Source: Dioscorea cayenensis subsp. rotundata | Taxonomy: Eukaryota > Streptophyta > Magnoliopsida > Dioscoreales > Dioscoreaceae | DNA length: 64,000 nucleotides | NCBI RefSeq assembly: GCF_009730915.1 | Contig: NC_052489.1 | Span: 30,807,916 to 30,871,915, forward strand | Direction of reading: 5' to 3' | Shown: positions 1 through 64,000 of the stretch, one piece after another | Position numbering within the stretch: the stretch's first letter is position 1 | Layout of the letters: each line of letters opens with the position of its first letter | Translations under genes and position numbers: made by a program | The notes under the pieces: generated by a model | Database searches by the model: none | Told to the model about the DNA's origin: nothing | Seen by the model: the letters and a program-made list of their open reading frames with translations, nothing else

Positions 1-606
1 CCGATGACAAAGGGGGTCGTCACGGCGGGTTAAATTTTTGTTTTTGAAGAACATGTCCCTGTATATCCCGAATGTCGATTTTGTTTTCGAATGTAAATCT
101 GGACAAATTCAATTCATTGTTTTCGTGTTCGAAGAGCATGACTTGTATATCTTAATGTAAATTTTGTTTTTTTGAATTGTAAAGCAGGTTAAATTCCATT
201 CAGTTTCATTTCATTGTTTAATTTACGTTCTAATTGTGTACATTTCACTTTCATTGTTTAAATATACTATATATCGTTTAAACATCAGTTGAAATGTTTC
301 AAATTACAGTGTATCCGTTTAAAATAACAATGTCTCTGTTTAAATACATTCAATTCGTTGTAAAGAGTAAGAGTTTAAATATAGAAAGTTGCCCATCAAT
401 ACACAATGTTTCCCACATCATCGTTGGCTTATTCTACGATGCCTAGTCGGCGACGAGTTTTATTGCGAAGATCTACGATTGTGACCGGGATCCATGGCGG
501 TACTGCGAATGTAACTTCGCGGACATCAAAGCGCTATGCGACTCGATCCTCTTTTTCGTCTAGGCCGCCCGGTCGCCTTCTCGTCGCGAGCGATCGCAAA
601 TGAAGC

Positions 607-963
607 TCACGATTTCCGTCCCGAAGGCTCGTCATCGTCGGGTATGGGGAATATAGCTTCCTGTACGCCGAGTTTGTAATTGTCGATGGTGAAGTACCCG
701 GTAATAAATCGATGTACGTTGGTGTCATGCTGCATTATTGCTCGCATAGCGTGTTTTGCGAGGGATACCATAAACTTGCCACCTTCGACATGAACAAGTT
801 CGATGGCGAGATACACGGAGTTCTCTGCCTGGTCGATCACTTCAGTAACTATCATCGACACAACGACCAACACGAAGATTTCGATCTGTCCCTCAACAAT
901 GATCTCTACCTTCGAATGTATGTGCGGGCATAAATAGGTCTCCCATTTGTTACGCTTGTTCAC
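607..963 (-). pseudogene. MULE C-terminal SWIM-type region (degenerate)
   Basis: The 118-residue minus-strand frame contains KFMVSLAKHAMRAIM, TNVHRFITGYFTIDNYK and IFPIPDDDEPSGRKS, which follow the C-terminal layout of MULE transposases (SWIM zinc finger, then the FxxxxY and IFPIPD segments). The first two Cys of the CxCxnCxH motif are replaced and a short deletion removes the third, so zinc binding is lost. The fragment lies downstream of the transposase core in the right order and strand, so I treat it as part of the same dead element. Confidence 0.75.
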
Positions 964-1545
964 GCGGGTTACATAACATGCGCATCAACTTGAACACAGC
1001 AAATAAGGTTAAACAAAGACGAGTGATGGTTAAATAATTCGTAAACATGGTTAAACATTATTGTAAATATTTAAACGAAAGGATTAATATTTAAAGTCAG
1101 ACAAGTGTAATTAAACAAAGATTGAGAATGTTTAAAGGGTAACACTAAATGTTAAGTGTAAACCAACATTCGCAGACCTTATGGAGTCGACCATTTTCGT
1201 CACCCGGTAAAATGACGAGCTTCCTTGATCCAAGCATTGAACGACTCGCGACGTTTGAATACATCTCACCCCAACGATCACCTCCCGAGCGGATAATTCG
1301 ACCAATGTGCCATATCCGATTTATTAATCAACCCGGTGATGAGCTTCGGGTGATGTGGCTGCGATTCATTCACGGTATCATCGAAATCTTTAGCCGTGGA
1401 TGCCCACGCAATGCGGAAGCATATAGACCCAGCACTCCTCCCTCAATGCCTTCCCAAGTCCGACATTGGCTTTTCATAAAATTGGCCTCCAAATGTCGAA
1501 GGCGATATGCATGTGGCGAAGAAGGGAAGACTCTCGCATTTCAGC

Positions 1546-2350
1546 TCACAAGGCCCTTGGACTGTCCGACACGAAGGTAATTATCTCATGATAATCTCCA
1601 TCCTCGTATAAGGCATCGCCTAACTTAGATATGAACCAAGTCCAATTGGCATCGGTCTCGTTGTCGACTATACCGAAGGCGACGTGGAAAAAACCATTGT
1701 TTCCATCTTTCCATGTGGCACCCAGTAGTGTACCCCGATATTTTCCAAGGAGGTGGGTACCATCGAGAAACAGCAGCGGCCTGCAAGCCCTCTTGAATCC
1801 CACAATACACGTGCCGAAAGTAAAGAATGCACGTTTAAAACGATCACCGTCTCTTTCCACGATCGCACGCTGCTGGGATTTGTCTCGAGCCACCTTATCC
1901 ACATGCCAAAAGCAAAGCGATCGTGGGCTGGAGATGTCAGCGCCGAGCCGAGGACCACCCGCACGTCTCTTTTTCCCAACCAAGCTCGCTTGTATGGTAT
2001 GTGGACACCATGTTCCCCGCAACACGCCCTTCCGAATGTCGATGGCCTTGCATACGAGGGGACGGTCCTTGAGATTCTGAATCACTCGTGCGCTAACCCA
2101 TTTTTTGGACGCTTTCGGATGCGACGCCGAACCTATGCCACCACCGCAAGTGTGTGACGGGTTGATTGTCTTGATTCTGAAAGTTTTTGTTATACTCTTT
2201 TTGATGCGTGAAGGCGCTGATGACAACCATCGGCGACAGCATTCCACGATCACTCGATGTTTTTTTCGTTCTTTATGAATTTGAAGTCAAAATTCCTTTT
2301 GATTGCATGATTTGGAAGTACATCCCTGAAATGTTCGACACCGTCAAAAC
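1546..2350 (-). pseudogene. MULE transposase, DNA-binding domain plus catalytic core (broken)
   Basis: The minus strand reads a MuDR N-terminal domain (GQRFDGVEHFRDVLPNHAIK, then FDFKFIKNEKNIE), a zinc-knuckle-like part (TKTFRIKTINPSHTCGG) and a MULE core with FLDGTHLLGKYRG, a GNNGFFHVAFGIVDNE segment and WTWFISKL. The Asp of LDGTHL matches the first catalytic residue of the family, and the Asp of FVSDSPRAL sits where the second is expected. The frame is broken near 2250 between the N-terminal part and the core, and again after about 1546, so the third catalytic residue is not in the open frame. This is a relic of a plain DNA transposon and not a host gene. Confidence 0.85.
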
Positions 2351-2699
2351 GTTGTCCAATATCCAACGAAAGCACTTCAGAATGATCTTACGAGAAAGGA
2401 AGACATCCCACGCCGTCAGGGTCACCATGGGAATGAACTGGAGTACTCGCAGAATCTGAATTCTCGCCAACACTTGATCAGAATGAAAAGATCAATATGT
2501 TAAGCGGAGAATATAATGTTTAAGTGATAATGACAATATTTAAAGCGTTAAATTAAATACTTAGCGATTAACTAATAACGTAAAGCGACTAGTACAAGAT
2601 TTTTAACTAGTGACGGACATATTTAAACACTAATGACCCCGCACAACTGGAACAATTAAAGAGAAGGAACTTACTGATGAGTAAAACTCGTTTTTCGTT

Positions 2700-3440
2700 A
2701 GGATTCGACAATGGCACATTTTTACGTCCTCGACGACAAGATCAACTACAGAGACATTTGAAAAATGGAGTGCACGCGACACATCCATCTGGAAGTCAAC
2801 ATCGCTTTTCTATTGGGCAAACCGTTTTATATCCATCCGGTGTGATGAACTTAACCCTCGACAATAGAAACTTGAGACCCCATCGCTCACAAATCTCGAC
2901 TAACACCAACTCCCAAGAAGTCTCGAGCAGTGAACATTAGCACTCTTCCCTCCCCGTTGAATCTAGCAATACCACAAAAACTCTCCATAATATATCGGCC
3001 GAAAACCAAATCGTACAAACCAAATGAAATGAAGAACAAAAATAAGCCGAAGAAGAAGAAGAAGAAGATGTAAACAACAAACAGCAGTCAGATAGGCAAA
3101 CAAAAAAAAGTGCATATATATATTAATAGTTATACATGTAAAGATAATGTTAAACGGAGATGGCAAGTATTAAACGGATATGACAATTATTAAACATATT
3201 AGTAATATATTTAAACGGATAATAGCAAATAGTTGAACATTATTTAAACAATAGTTCTTCTCGTCAGTAATACAACTTTTACAACCATAAAGCGAGAAGA
3301 CGACAATGGCACATCTCGTGCCTCGACAATAAAAATCGACTACGACTCATTTGAAGATGAAGTGCACTGACCCGATCCGATGGAAATCAATTTCATTTTC
3401 GTTTGAGAAACCGATGTATATATTTCGGGTATGATAATGA
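2700..3440. repeat. Duplicated segment near the MULE right end
   Basis: About 140 bases starting near 2705 (gacaatggcacatttttacg, then cattTGAAaaatggagtgca and a phrase around atatccatccgg) recur in diverged form near 3302 (gacaatggcacatctcgtgc, catttgaagatgaagtgca, atatatttcgg). The copies are about 600 bp apart in direct orientation and bracket an AT-rich TTAAACGG minisatellite. The segment could be a repeated 5' region of the element or two nested copies. Confidence 0.55.
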
Positions 3441-3705
3441 GGAGAACAACAAGATGTAATGCAACTTCTGGCATTGTCTATCGAAACCAGTAGAGCCCTC
3501 GAAAAGGTTGAACATGATGTTATTTTGGCGCTTTTTCTTTCCTACCATTTTCAGGCCAAAAATTGGATTTCACAACATGGACCCATTTGAAGTGAGCGGT
3601 GAGGGGTAAAAGGGAAGTTAAACACTAACGGAAGGGCTGTCCGGGGTGTGTAAAAGTAGGAGGGGGTTTTTGGGAAGTTTTGAAAATTACGAGGGGTGAA
3701 CAATA

Positions 3706-6016
3706 ATTTTCTCTTTTTTTTTATTATCTGATAATTTTCTATTCTTTTATTTTACATGTTCTTCCTCTTGTTTTTCCTGGTTTTTTAATATATTTTTGGG
3801 TGATTTAAACAAGATAATAATCCAAGAACATTTTGACTAATTTGCATTGTATGCTTGTTTAATTTTTTTAATACAAGATTTTCTTATTGGTCTAGATTTT
3901 CTTTGTCTCTTCACTTTTTAAGTCTGTTGAAATGTTTGTTTTTTAATTTTTTTAACTTATTTGTTTGATTAGGTGGGTTCAGTTCAAAGAAATAAATCAT
4001 TGAACTAATAGAATTAAGTTGAGTACATTACCAATTGTTTACATTGATTGCTTGAGAAATTAAAATTTCAACCATAAAAATTAATTAAGTTGATATGAAA
4101 TGAAACTTATGTACTACTGTTTATGATAAGTACCTTCATATATACCGGTCTTTTAGACAGTTAAGTGTTGAAAATATTTCACACATATGGCATATCCATA
4201 TCTACATATTAAATATCAATATTTATTTAATTAATCAATGATAATATCTTTGATATTTTTTAGTTTTCCAATTTTTTCAAGGAAATTATTTTTTTCTCAA
4301 GTATATATATAATGATAAATTTCATTTACTATTGATATTACCTTCATGAGGCCTAATAAAGAAATTTTATGCTTATAAAACAATGACTTAGAAACGAAGG
4401 CAACTGAATAAACAACTGAAAACTTTTTTGTCATTAAGCTTTAACAGTTGTCATTAAAACTTAATTAATCCATACTTGTGGTCATTTCTATTTTCTTTAA
4501 TTAAAATAATAATCCTCATCCATCACAAGCTTTATAATAACTAAACATAGTTATCACAAAACATTACATCCTCTGACACAAGTTTTTTATTTTTGTTTAA
4601 AGTTTACAAAATAAATACACACCATATAAAATATTATCATATTAAAACTTAATTAGTGTGTAAATAAAATTTTCTTTAATTAAGATTTAAATAAAGATTA
4701 GTAAGAGAGCATCCAAAAACAGTTGAATCTCTTTGCAAAAGGCCAAGCATGTGAAGAGCTTTGGAAAGATAGATTCTTATTTTATTTATTAATATATTTA
4801 TATATATATTTTCCCTTATATGATCATCTCCATCTCCACCAAAGAATAAGGTATGGATCAAAAAGGAGGAAAAAAGGGACCTCAAAGTTTAATGAGAATA
4901 AAAAATAATAAGAGTGGTGCTCTTTCTACAAAATGGTGGACCACACCCCAAGTCCACTTGCTTGGAAGCAAACAAAGAACACAAAGTGATGGGAAAAAGA
5001 AACAAGGAATTATAACTATTTATAATAATAATAATAATAATAATAATCCAAATCCCTTCCATACCTTATTATTATTATTATTAATTAAATAAACTATGAA
5101 AAGTAACAAAAAGTAAATTTTTACATTTTTAATCTGATGTAATTCTACTGTATTCCAATTGACAACAAACGGTTAAACTTTTGTTTAAAAAAAAAGAATT
5201 TTAATCAAATATTTGTTAAATTGATTATTTTAATATGAAAATCTATAATTTTTTTAAGCATCATTGATTTTAGTTTTTAATATATAACAAGATACATTTC
5301 ATAATAACTCAATATCTAATTTTTGAGCATATAATTAAGATAAATTGTGAAAAGAAAAAAATCCTTTTGTTTTTTGTTTTTAAATTAAATAAAGAAAAGA
5401 GAAAACTTTATGGTTAAGGAAAGGGGTAGGGAGTCAAGCAAAAATGGAAGAGGACAATGAATGTAATAAGAGGAATAGTGTCATTTCCAAGAATGCAAAC
5501 TTAAAGCCAGGAATAGTCCAAGTCATCCTAATCAGAATACCACATGAAACCAACCATCATCCAAACCCCACTTGCCTTCTTCCCACAGGCATGCACAACC
5601 CAAGAAAAACCTATATATATTAATTAATTAATTAATTAATTATTATTTTCTTAATGTTAGAAAAAGAAAAAAAAATCATAATAACTATTAACCACTAAAA
5701 ATGAAGGTGGTGATAATATATAGTAACCAAAAAAAGGAATGCAGTAATGGAAGAGCATTTGGTGAAAAAGGATGACATTTTTAGAAGCCATAAATAACAA
5801 GTTGCAACTTGCAAGTGGATGTGGAGTTGAAGAAGATTCATTCAAGATTGAGATTGGGATTTTATTAATTGATTTTTTTTAAAAAAAAATTAACAATTAA
5901 ATGAGAGGGTGAGAGCCCCACTTCAAAGAAGAAGAAGAAGAAGAAGAAGGTGGAGACCAAAGCCTCTTCTTTCTCTTTCTCTCTATCTCTATCTCTCTCT
6001 TTCAATCTTGTTTTTG
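3706..6016. other. AT-rich intergenic region upstream of the PAS-Raf gene
   Basis: No supported gene. It holds simple repeats (AAT near 5026-5046 and TTAATTAA near 5620-5642) and long A/T runs. Short open frames here lack codon bias or a recognisable domain. Closer to the gene are a GAA repeat (5928-5950) and a strong CT-rich tract (5965-6010), a pattern common in plant core promoters and 5' leaders. Confidence 0.6.
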
Positions 6017-6130
6017 ATGCTGTTCTTGTTGAAACCCATTGAAAAAACTTGATTTTGGAGAGAAGTTTGAGATAAAGGAGCCACCTTTGCAGCTGGACGT
6101 GTTCAAATGCTAGTAAAAATTCAATTTTGA
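6017..6130 (+). promoter_or_regulatory. Two short upstream ORFs in the PAS-Raf leader
   Basis: Two complete short frames start with ATG upstream of the main start: 6017-6052 (MLFLLKPIEKT) and 6107-6130 (MLVKIQF). If the transcript starts in or before the CT-rich tract at 5965-6010, both lie in the 5' leader, could lower translation of the kinase, and leave room for re-initiation at 6177. The transcript start is inferred, not seen. Confidence 0.4.
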
Positions 6131-6176
6131 GAAGAAGCTTGTTGGGATTTTGTGGTTTTTGGTTCTAGGTTTAGCT

Positions 6177-9100
6177 ATGGAGACACCTCCGGCTGAGGAG
6201 CTATTGAAGAAGATCCAGGAGCTGGAGGCTGGGCATGCTATGCTGAAGCAGGAGATGTCGAGGTTGATGCCGAGTGGTGGGGACGAGCGGCGGGCTGAAC
6301 GGCCTCGGTCGCAATCGGTTTCACCGCAGCGGTCACCGGCGCAGACGCGGAGGAGGAATAATGGAGGGTGTGAAGCGACTGGGTCCTCGGTTTGGCGTAA
6401 GGGCTCAGTGCCGTTTGGGCACTCGTCTCGGTTGCAGAGAGAGAGCAAGGACTCGAGCTCCAGAGCTGGTGAAGCTCCGGCTAGCATCGGTCTCTCCGAC
6501 CGACAGTATTTGAATATCTTGCAGTCCATGGGACAATCTGTGCACATCTTTGATCTCAGTGGCCGGATTATCTACTGGTGTGTTGAAGCTTGAATTCTTA
6601 TCTTCTTCTCTTCTTCTTTTTTGGTTGATTTTCATTGGTGGATTGTGTTTTTTCTCTTAGATTTTATTAATTTATTTTCTATGAGTTCACTGTTAATACT
6701 TTTTTCTTTTTCTTTTTCATTCAATCGAAACAGAACATCTATGAAATTTTGGTAAAGGAGAAGATTTTAGAGAGATTGATCTTGATATTTGTTGCTTGTT
6801 TTAGAGATAAATATCTTTGCTTGTTTCAGCAGCTTGTCATCTTTGATTGTGATATTTTTTTATTTTCCATTTCAACAATCTAAGCAATCTAGTTAGAGGT
6901 TCTTCTTCTTCTTCTCCACTTAAGCAACCTGCATTCAAATCTTCTTTGTAACTGTACAGTGGTTGATAGTACATGATTTTATTAAAATTTTGAATGAGCC
7001 AGGAATAACGCCACATGATTTTGTGTGTACTGTAGTTTGGATTGATACAGCAATGCAAATTTTTTAGGCCTGTAATGAGGCAGTGATTCAGAGGAGATAC
7101 ATGTAACTTTCGGTGCTTGATTGATGTAGGAACCGGACCGCTGAACGGTTGTATGGTTATTCTGCAGCTGAAGCCCTTGGCCAGGATGCCATTGAGTTGC
7201 TTGTCGATGGCCGTGACTTCAATGTTGCTAATAATATAATCCACCGGATAACCTTGGGGGAGAGTTGGACCGGGAAGTTTCCGGTCAAGAACAAACAGGG
7301 CGAGCGTTTTTTAGCTATGGTCACCAGCACTCCCTTCTACGACGATGATGGAAGTTTAGTTGGCATTATTTGTGTTTCAAATGATTCACAGTGCTTTCAG
7401 GATGCAATGTCTCCCCTTAGTTTCTCAAAGCCTAATGCTAGAATTGGTTGTGGTAACAAAGGTGTTTCTGATTCTCAACAGCCTCTCCAAGTTGCTCTTG
7501 CCTCCAAACTTTCAAACTTGGTGAGTTTATGACTGAAATCATTTGCTTCTCTGTCGAGTGTATGTATCTTGATTTTAGAATCACTGAAACAGGCTTCCAA
7601 GGTGACAAATAAAGTTCGCTCGAGAATTAGGACATCGGAGAATGGTTTGGAGCGCGAAAGTGCAAGTGGAGACAGTTTAGGTTCAGATCATGGCTGTTCC
7701 GATGCTGATCATAAGGAGGACGCGACATCGAGTGGAGCTAGCACTCCTAGAGGAGATGCACATCCTTCACCATTTGGTGTATCTTCTTCAGTGGCCTTTG
7801 ATGAGAAATCTCCGGGGAAATCAAGCAAAAGTAACAATGAGAAAGCTGATGGGAAGAGTGGAATTCACAAAATCATTAGCTCAAAGGCCGAAGCATGGAT
7901 TGCTAAGAAGGGGATATTGTGGCCCTGGAAAGGGAATGAGCATGACAGTACTGATAGTTCTGATACGAAGAACCCGAGCGATCAAGAGAATGATGTGAGC
8001 CATCCAAAAACTTCTGAATCTAATTTAAAGCCGGAAAACCAGGCGAACGAGAACAACCGAGCAGGAAACAATGAAGCCTCAGGGTCTTGGTCTTCCTTTA
8101 ATGCTAACAGTACAAGCAGTGTTAGCAGCAGTGGGAGCACCAGTAGCAGCGCGGTCCAGAAAGTCGATGGCGAGAATGACTGCTTGGATTATGAAATCTT
8201 ATGGGAGGATTTAACAATTGGTGAGCAGATAGGTCAAGGTAATCACCTCCGCCTCGGAGAACATGCTCCAACTTTATGCTCTTCATGGTTGGTTCTATGC
8301 TCAAATGTTTCCTTTTCTGGTCTTGCAGGTTCTTGTGGAACTGTGTATCATGCTCTCTGGTATGGTTCGGTATGTTCCAGTTGAAATTCATCCGGTTCTT
8401 CACTGTACTGCTATAAAATTTTAATTGATCGATATGTATAGAATGGCAAAACAAAAGTCAAGGATAGCAAATTCTGTTTCATTGTGAAGAATTTTGAGTT
8501 TCATTGCATCATTGTTTCAGAAAACTGTGTTTCTTTGCAGGATGTGGCAGTTAAAGTATTTTCAAAGCAAGAATACTCAGAGGATGTTATACTTTCATTT
8601 AGACAAGAGGTATTTTCAATTTTGTTGTTCTATTCTTCAATTTCTTTTCATGAATTTAAACAGTCAACTTACTCTAATTCACTATCGATAAAAGGTATCA
8701 CTCATGAAAAGGTTACGACATCCAAACATACTACTTTTTATGGGAGCTGTTACTTCTCCACAACGCCTGTGCATTGTGACAGAGTTCCTTCCACGGTTTG
8801 TTCTTTCACACTTTAATCTGTGGAAGCTGGTATTTTTTCCTAGCCAACTTCATGTATTAATTTTTTTACGTTATGGGTATTTATTCTCGACAAATTTCAT
8901 CGTGTAGGGGAAGTTTATTTCGGCTACTTCAAAGAAACACAACCAGGCTTGATTGGAGACGACGTATTCACATGGCTTTAGATATTGTGAGTACATACAT
9001 ATATACTTTCAATGTTTATTTTAAGTAATTTTTCTCTTATAGCGAGTGCTTAATATCCTCGTCTTGACAGGCGAGAGGCATGAACTATCTTCATCATTGC

Positions 9101-54521: not shown

Positions 54522-56534
54522 GTCATTTGGCATCAACTGGGCTTACTTATGTGAACCCCATGGCCTGAAAAAAAACTGACATCTAATGAAATCCCACCAG
54601 ATTGTTGAAAGAATTTTATTAGACTATGGATTGCAAAGTCCTTAGTTTGATGTTCTTCAGAAGTTTAATTTGGTAGTTAATTTCTTCCCGGAATTGTTGA
54701 TTGTGTTTTCCATTCCTCTGTTGTGTGCCAGGCTTTCCTGGTTTTTGGTTTTTAGTTTTGATGTTTTCCTTAACCTTCCACTTGTATGGTTTTTCTTGTG
54801 GATGAAATGCTTCTGGTCTGAATGTCTGATATTGATAATCCGAAATTTATAATATTCTATTAATAATTTGTGCAGATCTAGCTGGTCATAATAGTAAATT
54901 TATTGTTAATAATTTATAATATAAATATGAGCCTTTAATTTGATCACATTGAAGTTTTTAATTGGGGTAACTAGTGTTTTGTTTGGATGGTAAGGTACTG
55001 TTTTTAGATGAACACATGTTTGGAAACATGGTTTGAAGGGAATTTTTATCCGGTAGATTCATTTCATGGTAACTACCATGGAACCAAGACATGACATATT
55101 TTTAGCCATGGGTTTATAAATTTCATTGTTTTTTATTATATAATTTAGGGATATATTGGTAATTATCTTAAAAGATCTATACCTTTTACTTTAAAAATTA
55201 TTAAATCGAGGCAATCTAACAGATGTGGTTGAGCCATATTTCGCTTCTATAGTAACTATTACGAAACCGGTTCCGTGGGATCATCCCTCGTTTGAAGGAA
55301 GTTTGGTTTAAAGGGGATAAGATGAAGGATTGAATATTATGATAACATTTGGGTGTTTTGATAGTTTTATTGGACAAAAAAATGTTATCATAATTTTTAA
55401 TATTATCATTTGTATCCTTTATGATGAGTGAGCAAGGTTGATAAGAGATCATTTGAGGTCTTCTTTTAGACTCCATTTGCATTAGTATTTGTGGTAATAA
55501 TCTTATATTGTTACTGAAAATTAAAAAAGATGTTAAATTGTATTTTGTATTGTTGAATCTGATTATTTCTCCAAATGATATGTTTGAGATTGATAACAAA
55601 GTTTCTAGTTTATCTTGTTTTTGTGGAAACATATCACCCGTATTCATAATTGATATTTTATCTTTTGTTTTTTTGTTTTTTGTTTTTTTTAGTTTTAAAA
55701 ATGATTACTTTTAAAGTAAATAAAAAAATTTTTAAAAAAACTTTTTTATTATTAAAATCCACAACCTTTCATCTCTCCATGTCTGAAATAGCAAATACTT
55801 CGACATTTTAAAACATTTGTTTAATAAACTAAATGAGCATTTATTTAAAAAAATTTCAAAAAAACATTTTTTTATAATCTTAATATATAATCTTACACCA
55901 TTACCTTCAAACCAAATACTACACGGTTTAATAATTTTTTTACTCTACCTTTACGCCAAAGAGCGTTTGGTTCGCGGTAATGTAGCACGTGGTAATCTGA
56001 AAATATTACTATGTTTGGTATTACACCGATGGTAATCTGGATGGTAATATCACATTACCAACTTATAAATATTACTAAAAAAGTTGATAATTCTATTACT
56101 ACTAAATTTGGTGTCTATTTTGGATTACCGTGGTAATCTTATATCTTTTTATATTTTAGCAAATTGATTACCATAATAACCAAACACGGCAATTAATTAT
56201 TCCCAGTAATAAAAGTTCACAACCAAATATGGTTATATCAAACTACCGTAATTTTCACAACCATATAATATTTTCACTCATATTATTATGGTAATATGTC
56301 ATTACCACGAACTAAACGACCCCCAATAATTAAAGCTTTTTTTACCTCCTTTTACCTTCTAAGAAAAGGATAAGATGGAACCGGCTAAGCAAACTCAACC
56401 CCGCGGCACACGGTACCCACATCTACAAAGGCTAGAACAGTGAAAAGGCGCGACTTTTTTTTTTTTGTTATTTGGTCCCAACCTTCGTCTCTCCTCTTCG
56501 CCGATTGCGTCTCCATCGTCCTGCGGATCTCTCC
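54522..56534. other. Intergenic region with MITE remains
   Basis: Mostly AT-rich and non-coding. Contains the MITE at 55960-56323 (own entry) and a possible older one, about 54974-55925, whose ends share TTTGG(T/A)TGGTAAGGT-like words. A 15-bp perfect inverted repeat (ATTATGATAACATTT at 55336, mirrored at 55380) sits in it. Confidence 0.45.
55960..56323. mobile_element. MITE with TTTGGTTCG-type terminal inverted repeats, about 364 bp
   Basis: Left end GAGCGTTTGGTTCGCGGTAA and right end TTACCACGAACTAAACGACC (reverse complement GGTCGTTTAGTTCGTGGTAA) are inverted copies with four mismatches. Subterminal GGTAAT/ATTACC words recur inside. Such ends resemble Tourist (PIF/Harbinger) MITEs; the three-base target duplication could not be fixed, so the superfamily is tentative. 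Confidence 0.7.
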
Positions 56535-59500
56535 ATGGCCACCGATGCGCAGATGGAGTTGAATTCCCATCACTGGGAGGCCATACTCTCGCAGGTACCA
56601 CAAGCTCCTGGAGAAGCGGAAGAAGCTGCCCATTTGGGCCCATAAGGAGAAGTTCCTTGATGCTCTCGCCAAGCACCAGATCGTCGTCGTTGCCGCCGGG
56701 AGTGGCTCAGGGAAATCCACCCAGGTGCGGAGTCCTCCTCCTTTATCTTCCTCATTTGTTCAGAATCAAGGATTTGTGTAATGTTTGCATGGTTGAAGTT
56801 GGAAATCCTTTTGTTTATGATGTGAGTTTGTACTTTTAGAATGAATGCTGTTTTGTCCTGAGAAAACTTTTGCTTTCCCTTCAGTTATGGATTGAAGAGC
56901 TACATATGAGCTCAATTCTGTGGGTTTTGGTTGAAAAACCTTGTCTTGAGATTGTTGTGAATATGATTTTTGGACAAGGTAACGCAGGTTTACGTTCTTT
57001 ATGGGGATAGAGGACATGAGATTTCTTGGTTTTTTTAAAAAAATCAAGTCTAGGATGAAAATGCTGGCTTCTTCTGCTCTTCGCTGTCAGAGTTTGATGT
57101 TGATGATATTCTACATCAAAGAAAGAAATGGTTTTTGATCAATTGAACTGATTATAGGACTGAATTCTTATGACAATAGAGTTGTTCATACTGTGATTCG
57201 GATTATTTGATATTGAGATGGAGCGGAAATGCTGGATCATTGCTGACTTTTAGAAGTTGACTTGGGTGCAAAAATAATTATAGAATTAATTAAATAGTGG
57301 AGATTCTTTCATCCTATGGCTGCAGTATATGCCAGAGAAACCCAGGTTGGACAAACTCTGGTTTTGATGGTCGGAAAATAGAGGATAAAAAATACTTAAA
57401 AGTTTGATGCTGGGCAACATTCTAAAATGATGTGGACAATAACTTAAACATAGCTTAATAAACTTAAACATAGCTCACTCTTGTGTTTATTTGTAGTCCC
57501 TTCAATTAATGAAATCCATCTTATATTGATTTGTTTTGATCATTTGTTCTGCCTAGGGGCTTATAGTAGTTGTCAGCAAACAAGTTGTAGCCAGTGAGAA
57601 AACCCTACTTTGTTGATCAATTGTGGATCTGAAACTGGCACTGAGTTGACTTAGACTTCAGCTGGATAAGCTATCATTTTCTATGGAACCAACCCCCCTA
57701 GAGTACTAAATTACCACATGGCTTTCTCTAAGTGTTCACTGTACTAGCATCTCTATAATAGCAGGCCACACATAATTGCTGGTAACATGTCGAGTGCTCT
57801 CTGTGTTGTTTTCTTTTCATGGTCTGTATGCATTTGATAGAGTTTTCCCTTGAGATCTTCTGAAGTTTATGGTGTATTGTTCCCATGTGACAGATCCCTC
57901 AGTTTATCATCGAGGCAGGTTATGCAGGTCAAGGTAAGAAGGTTGTGTGCACTGAACCTCGCAGATTGATTGCTACAGCCATTTCTCGTCGAGTAGCTCA
58001 AGAGATGGATGTCACTATTGGGGCAGAAGTTGGCTACTCAGTGCTGTTTGAAGAGTGTAGTGGCCCAAAAACTACTCTGAAGTAAGTTTATGAGGGCAGA
58101 CCTTGAAGTCTATTTTGTAGTTCTGCGTTAAAAAATCAGAAGTTATCATCTCTTTTTCCGTTGTATCCTTTGGAGATATTGTCGGCTACTCCAACATTTG
58201 CTTTCTGGGTTATCTTAGGTATTTAACAGATGGAATGCTCCTTAGAGAACTTCTGGCTGATCAGCTTTTACAGAGTTATGGTGTGATAGTTCTGGATGAG
58301 GCTCATTTAAGGACATTGGCTACAGATATTCTTCTTGGTTATCTAAAAAGATTGATAGAAAGGAACTCTCAACCTGATCTGAAACTAGTTATAATGAGCA
58401 CGCAACATGAGGTGAAATGGTTTAAGGATTACTTCAAAGGTGCCAAGATTGTTCAAGTACAAGGATCACTTAATCCTGTTGAAATTATTCACACTTCAAA
58501 ACCAATAGGAGATTACTTGGAAGCATCAATTGAGAAAGTCTTAGAGATACTCACATCTGAACCAACTGGTGATATTCTTGTGTTTCTCCCAGGAGGGGAT
58601 GACATAGAAATTGGCTCCTCGAGGCTCACTGATCTGCTTAAAGACAGGACTAATGAATTTGGACCTGTGAGAGTTCTTCCGCTCCATTCAACACTGTCAA
58701 TTGAACATCAGAAGAAGATTTTCAAGGCTGCTCCACCCTCAACAAGGAAGGGTGGCCCTGTCGGAAGGAAAGTTATCATGTCAACTGACATTGCCGAATC
58801 GTCATTGGCTATCGATGGCATTGCTTATGTGATTGATTCTGGATTTTCAAAGCAAAAGGTTTATAATGCAGGTCTACATGCTGAGTCTTTGCTGGTTTTG
58901 CCAATATCAAGAGCAAGTGCATACAGGAGATCAGGATGTTGCCGAAGGTCAGTATCTGGGAAATGCTACAGGCTCTACACAAAGAAGTTTCTCGAAGCTT
59001 GTCAGCCACATGCATCCCCAGAGATTCTCCGTGCGAATCTTGCAGGCACAGCCCTCCTTTTGAAGAAGCTTGGCATTAGTGATATGCTACATTTTGATTT
59101 TATTAACCCTCCTGCTGTTGACATGATGACTAGTGCTATTGAGACATTAAACTGCTTAGGTGCTTTGGATGGAGATGGGAATTTGACTATAATAGGGGAA
59201 CTCATGAGTGAATTTCCTCTTGATCCTCATATGTCAAAAATGATCCTTTGCAGTCCAGAGTTCAAATGCTCCACTGAGATCCTCTCAATCACTTCCATGT
59301 TGTCAGGTATTCCTTTCATAATCTGGCACAATCATTTGTTATTTCATCTTGACATATCTATGCTATTAATTATCAGCATTTTTGCCATTAAGTAGTTCAA
59401 TTTAGCATTCATTATCTTATGAAGAATTTTGTGTTGTTTCTCATGCATCCCACTGATTTCTCAGCCTCTTCTGTTATTACCAAAATTCTCTTCTTTAGTA

Positions 59501-60355
59501 CCACATTGCTTCTTCCAACCTAGGGGAAAGAAGCATGATGCTGATGAAGCAAAGGCCAAATTTAGTCATGCTAAAGGGGATCACCTTACTCTTCTGACTC
59601 TCTATCAGGCCTACAAGAAACATAGTGAGAACCAGTTCCCTTTCTTTCCCAATCTATTCCCATTGACTTATTTTCCTTAATAGACCAATTCCTCCAGATG
59701 GCAGTTCTGCTTGGTGTGAAGAGAATTATGTTAATGAAGCAGCTCTGAAGTCTGCTGATAATGCGAGGTTCCAGCTCGAGTCCATCATGCGTAGGTTCAA
59801 CATCAAGCTATGTTCAACTGAACCCAGCAACTGTGATTACGAAAACAATATAAGAAAAGCACTACTCGCAGGGTATTTTATGCAAGCTGCAAAGCTTGAT
59901 ACTTCTGGTCACTATGTGACTGTCAAGAATCAACATGTCAGTAGTTCAATTACATCATCTTTCGGTCATTGTTATGTCTCCTTTAGTTTCACATTCAATT
60001 GGCATTATGCGCAGGTTGTGGAGCTGCATCCTTCAAGCTCTGTTGTGCCAAAGCCGACATGGGTCATTTACGACGATTTTGTTGTTGCCGGCAGGCCTTT
60101 TATTCGTATTGTCAGTGATGTGCAAGGAGAGTGGTAAGTTCATACAAGCTATTATTGTCCATATGCTTCAGTAAAAGTATTAAGTTGCTGAGAAGAAAAA
60201 CATTGATTATACACTCACTGATTGACTTGGTGATTAACATCTTTCTGTTTTCTTGACATTAAAATTAACATACTCAAACAATTGTCATGTTCTCTTGCAG
60301 GCTTGTTTCTATTGCTCCTCACTATTATCATATATCAGCTATTGGACGTAACTAA
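56535..60355 (+). CDS. Diverged DEAH-box helicase paralogue (Prp43/DHX15 type) with altered catalytic motifs
   Basis: Seven exons (56535-56724, 57894-58081, 58219-59306, 59499-59634, 59684-59936, 60015-60133, 60301-60355) give 675 residues if one surplus base near 56566-56573 is ignored. Introns fall at the same places as in the neighbour at 61269. Seen: GRPYSRRYHKLLEKRKKLPI, P-loop AAGSGSGKSTQ, CTEPRRLIATAISRRVAQEM, DEAHLRT (about residue 151), then MSTQHE where the family has MSATLE (motif III, about 184), TDIAESSLAIDGI, and YRRSGCCRRSVSGKC where the family has [14 protein letters not shown] (motif VI, about 362). The ratchet/WH and OB parts follow (WVIYDDFVVAGRPFIRIVSD, GEWLVSIAPHYYHIS), but the protein stops about 40-50 residues early. 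Family function: spliceosome disassembly and ribosome assembly. With motifs III and VI degraded, ATP-driven unwinding is unlikely. Confidence 0.85.

Positions 60356-61268: not shown

Positions 61269-64000
<2,732 letters not shown>

Follow-up and report, generated by a model that had tools for sequence, protein, structure and literature searches.

Does a DEAH-box helicase gene that has lost catalytic motifs still encode a protein that its plant keeps, or is it a duplicate in decay? The question is raised by copy A, a gene of seven exons at 56535-60355 of the window (the whole stretch of 64,000 nucleotides analysed here, C19:30807916-30871915). Copy A is a Prp43/DHX15 paralogue and lies directly 5' of gene B, itself a Prp43 gene. 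Prp43/DHX15 is the DEAH-box helicase that takes part in the disassembly of spliceosomes and in the assembly of ribosomes, and a reading of this DNA made from the letters alone (the sequence-only reading) had proposed that copy A is either a retained pseudo-helicase or a duplicate early in decay.

Each of the six introns of copy A is of the GT-AG type, and the match in exon positions with the neighbour at 61269, described in the sequence-only reading, holds: A and B share an exon plan with near-identical lengths for exons 2 to 6 (188, 1088, 126, 239 and 119 in A; 188, 1086, 126, 239 and 119 in B). That reading had also counted about 675 open codons with one break; we likewise found one break and no stop, with the frame open for 654 codons, from GRPYS (56575) to the stop. 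The C-terminal tail is cut, as had been noted, with 8 residues after HYY in A versus 35 in B, and the N-terminal extension of B is absent from A and also from C, a third family member on contig C7 (L010) whose catalytic motifs are intact. When the PDB was searched with the A protein, the first 12 sequences were DHX15/Prp43/ddx-15 (E 8.5e-216 to 1.1e-189; one bears just the label RNA helicase) and DHX8 was the next family (E 1.8e-167), so that by this search the full-length similarity of A to Prp43/DHX15 stands above that to other DEAH proteins. The C-terminal winged-helix, ratchet-like and OB domains are all present (Pfam HA2_N, HA2_C and OB_NTP_bind above cut-off).

Table 1. Positions in the window of copy A, its frame break and neighbour B, and locations of the transposon copies that carry pieces of A.
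Feature	Position	Strand	Content
Copy A exon 1	56535..56724	+	ATG 56535, context CCATGG; homologous frame from GRPYS 56575; P-loop AGSGSGKS 56695-56718
Frame break in copy A	56565..56578	+	TCCCA-TCAC-TGGGA, perfect 5-base inverted repeat
Copy A exon 2	57894..58081	+	motif Ia TEPRR within 57951-57974; hook-turn RF -> LF within 58041-58055; in-frame Met 58005
Copy A exon 3, first motifs	58219..59306	+	Ib TDGMLLRE intact 58226-58249; DEAHLR 58295-58312; STQ for SAT within 58394-58411
Copy A exon 3, later motifs	58219..59306	+	motif V STDIAESSLAIDG 58781-58819; motif VI RRSGCCRR 58925-58948
Copy A exon 3, domains	58219..59306	+	Pfam Helicase_C, HA2_N, HA2_C above cut-off
Copy A exon 4	59499..59624	+	ratchet-like domain
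Copy A exon 5	59698..59936	+	ratchet-like domain into OB fold; Pfam OB_NTP_bind above cut-off
Copy A exon 6	60015..60133	+	OB fold
Copy A exon 7	60301..60355	+	stop codon 60353-60355; tail ends ..HISAIGRN
Neighbour B, Prp43/DHX15	61269..63524	+	motifs intact; exons 61269-61553, 62145-62332, 62439-63524; four more beyond window
MULE copies with A pieces	L022:1146-6461 (C14); L024 ~540-6479 (C3); L023, L025, L026 (C4); L027 (C1115)

Residue numbers below are those of ctPrp43, set by motif anchors, with the spacing to human shifting by 1-2 residues between anchors. Copy A departs from an active helicase in motif III, where SAT reads STQ and both A and T are lost, in motif VI, where QRxGRAGR reads RRSGCCRR (Q428R and R432C, with R435 kept), and in the hook-turn, where RF reads LF (R180L). 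Motif V carries N382D, T386S and T389A, the residue after DEAH is changed (E222L, DEAHER to DEAHLR), and R562Q is found at a position set by offset only. The STQ, the DEAHLRT for DEAHERT and the altered motif VI (RRSGCCRR) of the sequence-only reading are thus all borne out; the P-loop is altered as claimed, but in a different register, GETGSGKT having become AGSGSGKS with the lysine kept. Among the residues compared, K125, D218, E219, R162, R435, T195, R201, T381 and K403 are unchanged, T126 is a serine, and motif Ib is unaltered (0/8 departures). Copy A thus retains the Walker A lysine and the DEAH of an active helicase, together with the adenine-stacking arginine and most of the tested RNA-contacting side chains.

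PMC5262380 places Glu219 with Gln428 and Arg435 in holding the attacking water, assigns phosphate contacts to Arg432 and Arg435, and lists N382 and R562, both changed in copy A, as RNA contacts of the published structure. It also describes the hook-turn RF motif and a double mutant of R180 and F181 to glycine with an unwinding rate of 0.68 versus 60.03 nM/min and an RNA-binding KD of 0.84 versus 4.98 uM (PMC5262380); as copy A alters R180 only and not F181, this mutant is an imperfect proxy. Residue-level G-patch contacts were not found in the parts of PMC9860317 and PMC11459146 consulted. Copy A has lost residues that fire and couple ATP hydrolysis (Q428, R432, the A and T of motif III and R180 of the hook-turn), and its likely working state would have been a Prp43-shaped protein able to bind nucleotide and RNA but not to translocate, acting perhaps as a clamp or competing with Prp43 for its substrates or partners.

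The sequence-only reading had named loss focused on catalytic motifs, with the OB region conserved, as the sign of a retained, non-catalytic role. Over 394 columns that are invariant among B, C, human and worm, copy A departs 129 times, 22/65 in motifs and 107/329 at other sites (Fisher P 0.89), and a concentration of loss in the catalytic motifs is therefore rejected. Motifs III and VI combined give 6/10 departures versus 123/384 elsewhere (P 0.086). With domain boundaries taken from PMC5262380 and placed approximately, departures number 32/113 in RecA1, 41/113 in RecA2, 17/48 in the winged helix, 20/64 in the ratchet and 19/56 in the OB domain. The absence of motif focus counts against that specific sign, and the even spread is no less compatible with general relaxation than with a new non-catalytic role.

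Protein identity is 57.8% for A:B, 55.1% for A:C and 82.2% for B:C, and identity to human DHX15 is 50.2% for A and 72.7% for B. Branch lengths (LG+G4) are 0.77 for A, 0.05 for B and 0.155 for C, and where human and worm agree A departs alone at 129 sites, B at 4 and C at 17. A, B and C have a derived state in common at 26 sites. A closer kinship of A with C, both of which are without B's N-terminal extension, was rejected, since A and B have 6 derived sites in common, A and C 1, and B and C 3; the A+B grouping itself has a support of only 56 (LG+G4) or 77 (LG+C20+G4). As a paralogue of plant Prp43/DHX15, copy A is old, and it most likely arose by tandem duplication of B. Comparison of the window with the analysed DNA of contig C7 revealed no synteny, as the 538 window frames matched only repeat-type proteins outside the Prp43 gene. 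Gene B is intact but for a single surplus base, an A in AAGG (63085-63088), which shifts its frame once and is probably an error of the assembly; C has GG in place of the expected GT donor after exon 3 (after TCAG, L010 reverse-complement near 6070), an N-terminus that is short (MQSGEMNRW) and a tail that ends early, at YAKC.

Synonymous sites are near saturation (pS 0.725 for A-B and 0.661 for B-C over 646 codons), with fourfold-site identities of 61/162 = 0.377 for A-B versus 0.292 expected at random and of 99/222 for B-C versus 0.285. DNA alignments of A with B are confined to exons, save for about 35 bases where intron 3 ends and a few more at other places. By the near exon-only alignment and the fourfold identity, a young duplicate is rejected. 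For simple decay, the sequence-only reading had expected a dN/dS near 1. In a three-branch codon model dN/dS is 0.07 for B and C and 0.185 for A, the latter being uncertain owing to synonymous saturation and, as a branch average, giving no date for selection. A single dN/dS for all branches is worse by 8.7 log units and a value fixed at 1 for the A branch by 36.6 (2dlnL 73), while among the values tried those of 0.12 or less and of 0.30 or more give 2dlnL over 5. Under a forced clock (A's time equal to B's), which fits worse (2dlnL 16.9), the A branch has a dN/dS of 0.31, and a value of 1 is still rejected (2dlnL 120).

The 654 codons hold no stop, where neutral change of 0.18 per site would be expected to leave 13.8 and change of 0.05 per site 3.8 (P 0.02 for the latter); a neutral phase of at most 0.02 per site would still be compatible (1.5 stops expected, P 0.22). 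A recent neutral phase can therefore not account for the excess change of copy A. Near-saturated synonymous sites, a dN/dS of 0.185 (0.31 with the clock) and the absence of stops together reject the early-decay duplicate, and six introns, a rejected dN/dS of 1, no stop and a single frame break are not those of a processed or young decaying pseudogene. Averaged over its branch, the protein of copy A was under purifying selection. It is improbable, in our judgement, that A is instead a duplicate whose constraint was weak and relaxing and which acquired no role of its own, the frame break being the last step: the departures are indeed even between motif and other sites and across the five domains, and far more frequent at fixed columns in A (129/394) than in B (16/410) or C (29/423), but synonymous sites this close to saturation behind an open frame need selection over most of the branch, and a useless copy should not persist so long.

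The history of copy A can be read further in transposons. With exon 3 as the query, a DNA search of the assembly (584.2 Mb in 2249 contigs) recovered fragments from six places besides A, B and C, and a search with exon 1 recovered A plus the same places, at least six in number. At each of them, inverted ends (186-349 aligned bases) enclose an element of about 5.1-5.9 kb that carries pieces of A. Target duplications of 9 bases, read by eye, flank the L022 and L024 insertions, the only two whose ends were read, and frames of L022, the sole copy scanned with Pfam, contain a MULE transposase domain and a SWIM finger. From the inverted ends, the target duplications and the transposase domain of L022, the element carrying A pieces is a MULE. 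Because L023, L025, L026 and L027 can be aligned with one another over ~10 kb, past the element ends, the six copies probably represent three insertions, one of which was multiplied with its surroundings.

The captured pieces correspond to 56520-57372, 57722-57886, 58678-58773 and 58915-59026, with ends that vary slightly in some copies; they exclude motifs II, III and V and the hook-turn, and they include intron, indicating that DNA was captured. The P-loop is clean as AAGSGSGKS in L022, L024 and L025, and motif VI is clean as YRRSGCYRRS in L022, L023 and L024; L025-L027 are locally scrambled at motif VI, yet TGCTA is at the same place, and it occupies the position of the motif VI arginine in 6/6 copies. 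As the altered P-loop and motif VI are both present in the transposon copies, both changes precede the capture. The local scrambles in L025-L027 (for example CTG to TCG) resemble assembly polishing errors in repeats.

Compared with all six copies, and leaving out the frame-break block, copy A shows 5 nonsynonymous and 7 synonymous differences over 123 codons (P 0.020, one-sided, if change were neutral), a small test of 12 fixed differences along a path that includes the transposon's own stem; at 58708, one of the five nonsynonymous sites, the transposon copies differ among themselves. Divergence per site is 0.018 for nonsynonymous sites, 0.072 for synonymous sites and 0.056 for intron 1 (44/792), so that nonsynonymous change is below that of the intron (P 0.011) and synonymous change is comparable with it (P 0.49). 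At two of these five sites copy A appears derived, at 56599 (H, versus Y in the copies and human) and at 59012 (A, versus T in the copies, B, C, human and worm). At a substitution rate of ~6e-9 per site per year, the intron value would date the capture to some 5 million years before the present, and the duplication that gave rise to copy A would be older than 100 million years, both being rough estimates. Catalytic loss coincides with selective retention for the past only, on small numbers after the loss of motif VI. Judged from these sequences, a pseudo-helicase role is likely for the past of copy A and uncertain for its present. Of the two fates offered by the sequence-only reading, retention therefore stands for the past, with P-loop and motif VI altered before capture and little nonsynonymous change later, while early decay falls away.

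What remains is the break in exon 1, which that reading had likened to artefacts found across the window. At 56565-56569 all six transposon copies (6/6) have GGGT, whereas A has TCCCA, a block of four bases replaced by five. The GGGT form is in frame (N-G-F-T-G-R-P-Y-S) and matches N-R-W-T-G in C, so that the in-frame form is ancestral and the break of A derived. A homopolymer artefact was rejected as the cause, given the exchange of four bases for five and the perfect inverted repeat with TGGGA, and the likeness to other breaks was not confirmed, as a block replacement is unlike the single-base break in B. The break is probably a real mutation, and TCCCA may have arisen by template switch at the quasi-palindrome in exon 1. 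We regard it as very improbable that copy A is intact and the break an assembly error like the neighbouring single-base breaks: such errors are suggested nearby by the insertion in B and the GG donor of C, and some transposon copies are locally scrambled, but five bases for four with a perfect inverted repeat do not look like a homopolymer error.

The frame from the first ATG, which has good context, stops after 36 codons, a TGA lies directly upstream of GRPYS in the helicase frame, and the next in-frame Met after GRPYS, at 58005, is past motifs I and Ia; by this reasoning from the sequence, this haplotype probably yields no full-length protein. It could be argued that A still works as a pseudo-helicase, the exon-1 change being confined to one allele in a heterozygous plant or the start lying elsewhere (for example at Met 58005, without motifs I and Ia), as the 654 codons without a stop, the six GT-AG introns and the low nonsynonymous divergence after capture would all suit a working gene. 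We think this unlikely, given where the first ATG leads and the TGA before GRPYS, and neither exon 3 nor exon 1, when used as a DNA query, picked up a further copy of A beyond those in the MULEs, although a collapsed assembly would hide an allele. That B is presumably functional, yet frame-broken in the assembly, counts against reading A as knocked out.

On balance, we favour with modest confidence the reading that copy A is a long-retained, non-catalytic Prp43-like protein whose frame was recently broken by a template switch and that is probably knocked out here. The order of events would be duplication, change of P-loop and motif VI under selection, capture by the MULE and then the frame break, with the switch from GGGT to TCCCA severing the start codon from the helicase frame after the capture. 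More speculatively, and with little confidence, A may be one of an old clade of plant pseudo-helicases descended from Prp43, which clamped RNA or sequestered Prp43 partners, without translocation, for more than 100 million years beside the parent, the broken allele either segregating or marking a recent loss in this lineage. The transposon copies are fossils of gene A, from which the order of P-loop and motif VI loss, capture and frame break is partly readable in one genome.

Copy A resembles Prp43/DHX15 in its C-terminal domains, in the exon plan of the neighbouring plant gene and in its best PDB matches, whereas its motifs III and VI and its hook-turn are altered, its terminal extensions are gone and its branch is ~15x that of B. 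Pack-MULEs are a known kind of gene capture, and the elements here resemble them in that MULE ends and target duplications surround host-gene fragments, intron included, but differ in also retaining MULE transposase and SWIM-finger stretches. A full-text literature search for the word, which yielded three papers, indicates that pseudo-helicases are seldom documented; the literature searched showed no plant Prp43 pseudo-helicase, and in a search for inactive Prp43 paralogues the phrase was met only for another protein. A Prp43-derived pseudo-helicase, if true, would raise the question of whether a non-catalytic rival also confronts Prp43's many G-patch partners. Vertebrate DQX1 is a Prp43-like paralogue with altered motifs, but of an independent lineage, and its resemblance to A is only a lead. 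A further comparison is the pseudohelicase Utp25/Def (PMC9539457), which like copy A is helicase-like with catalytic motifs that can be dispensed with, but Utp25 resembles DEAD-box proteins and is essential, whereas A is a DEAH-box Prp43 paralogue whose present function is putative.
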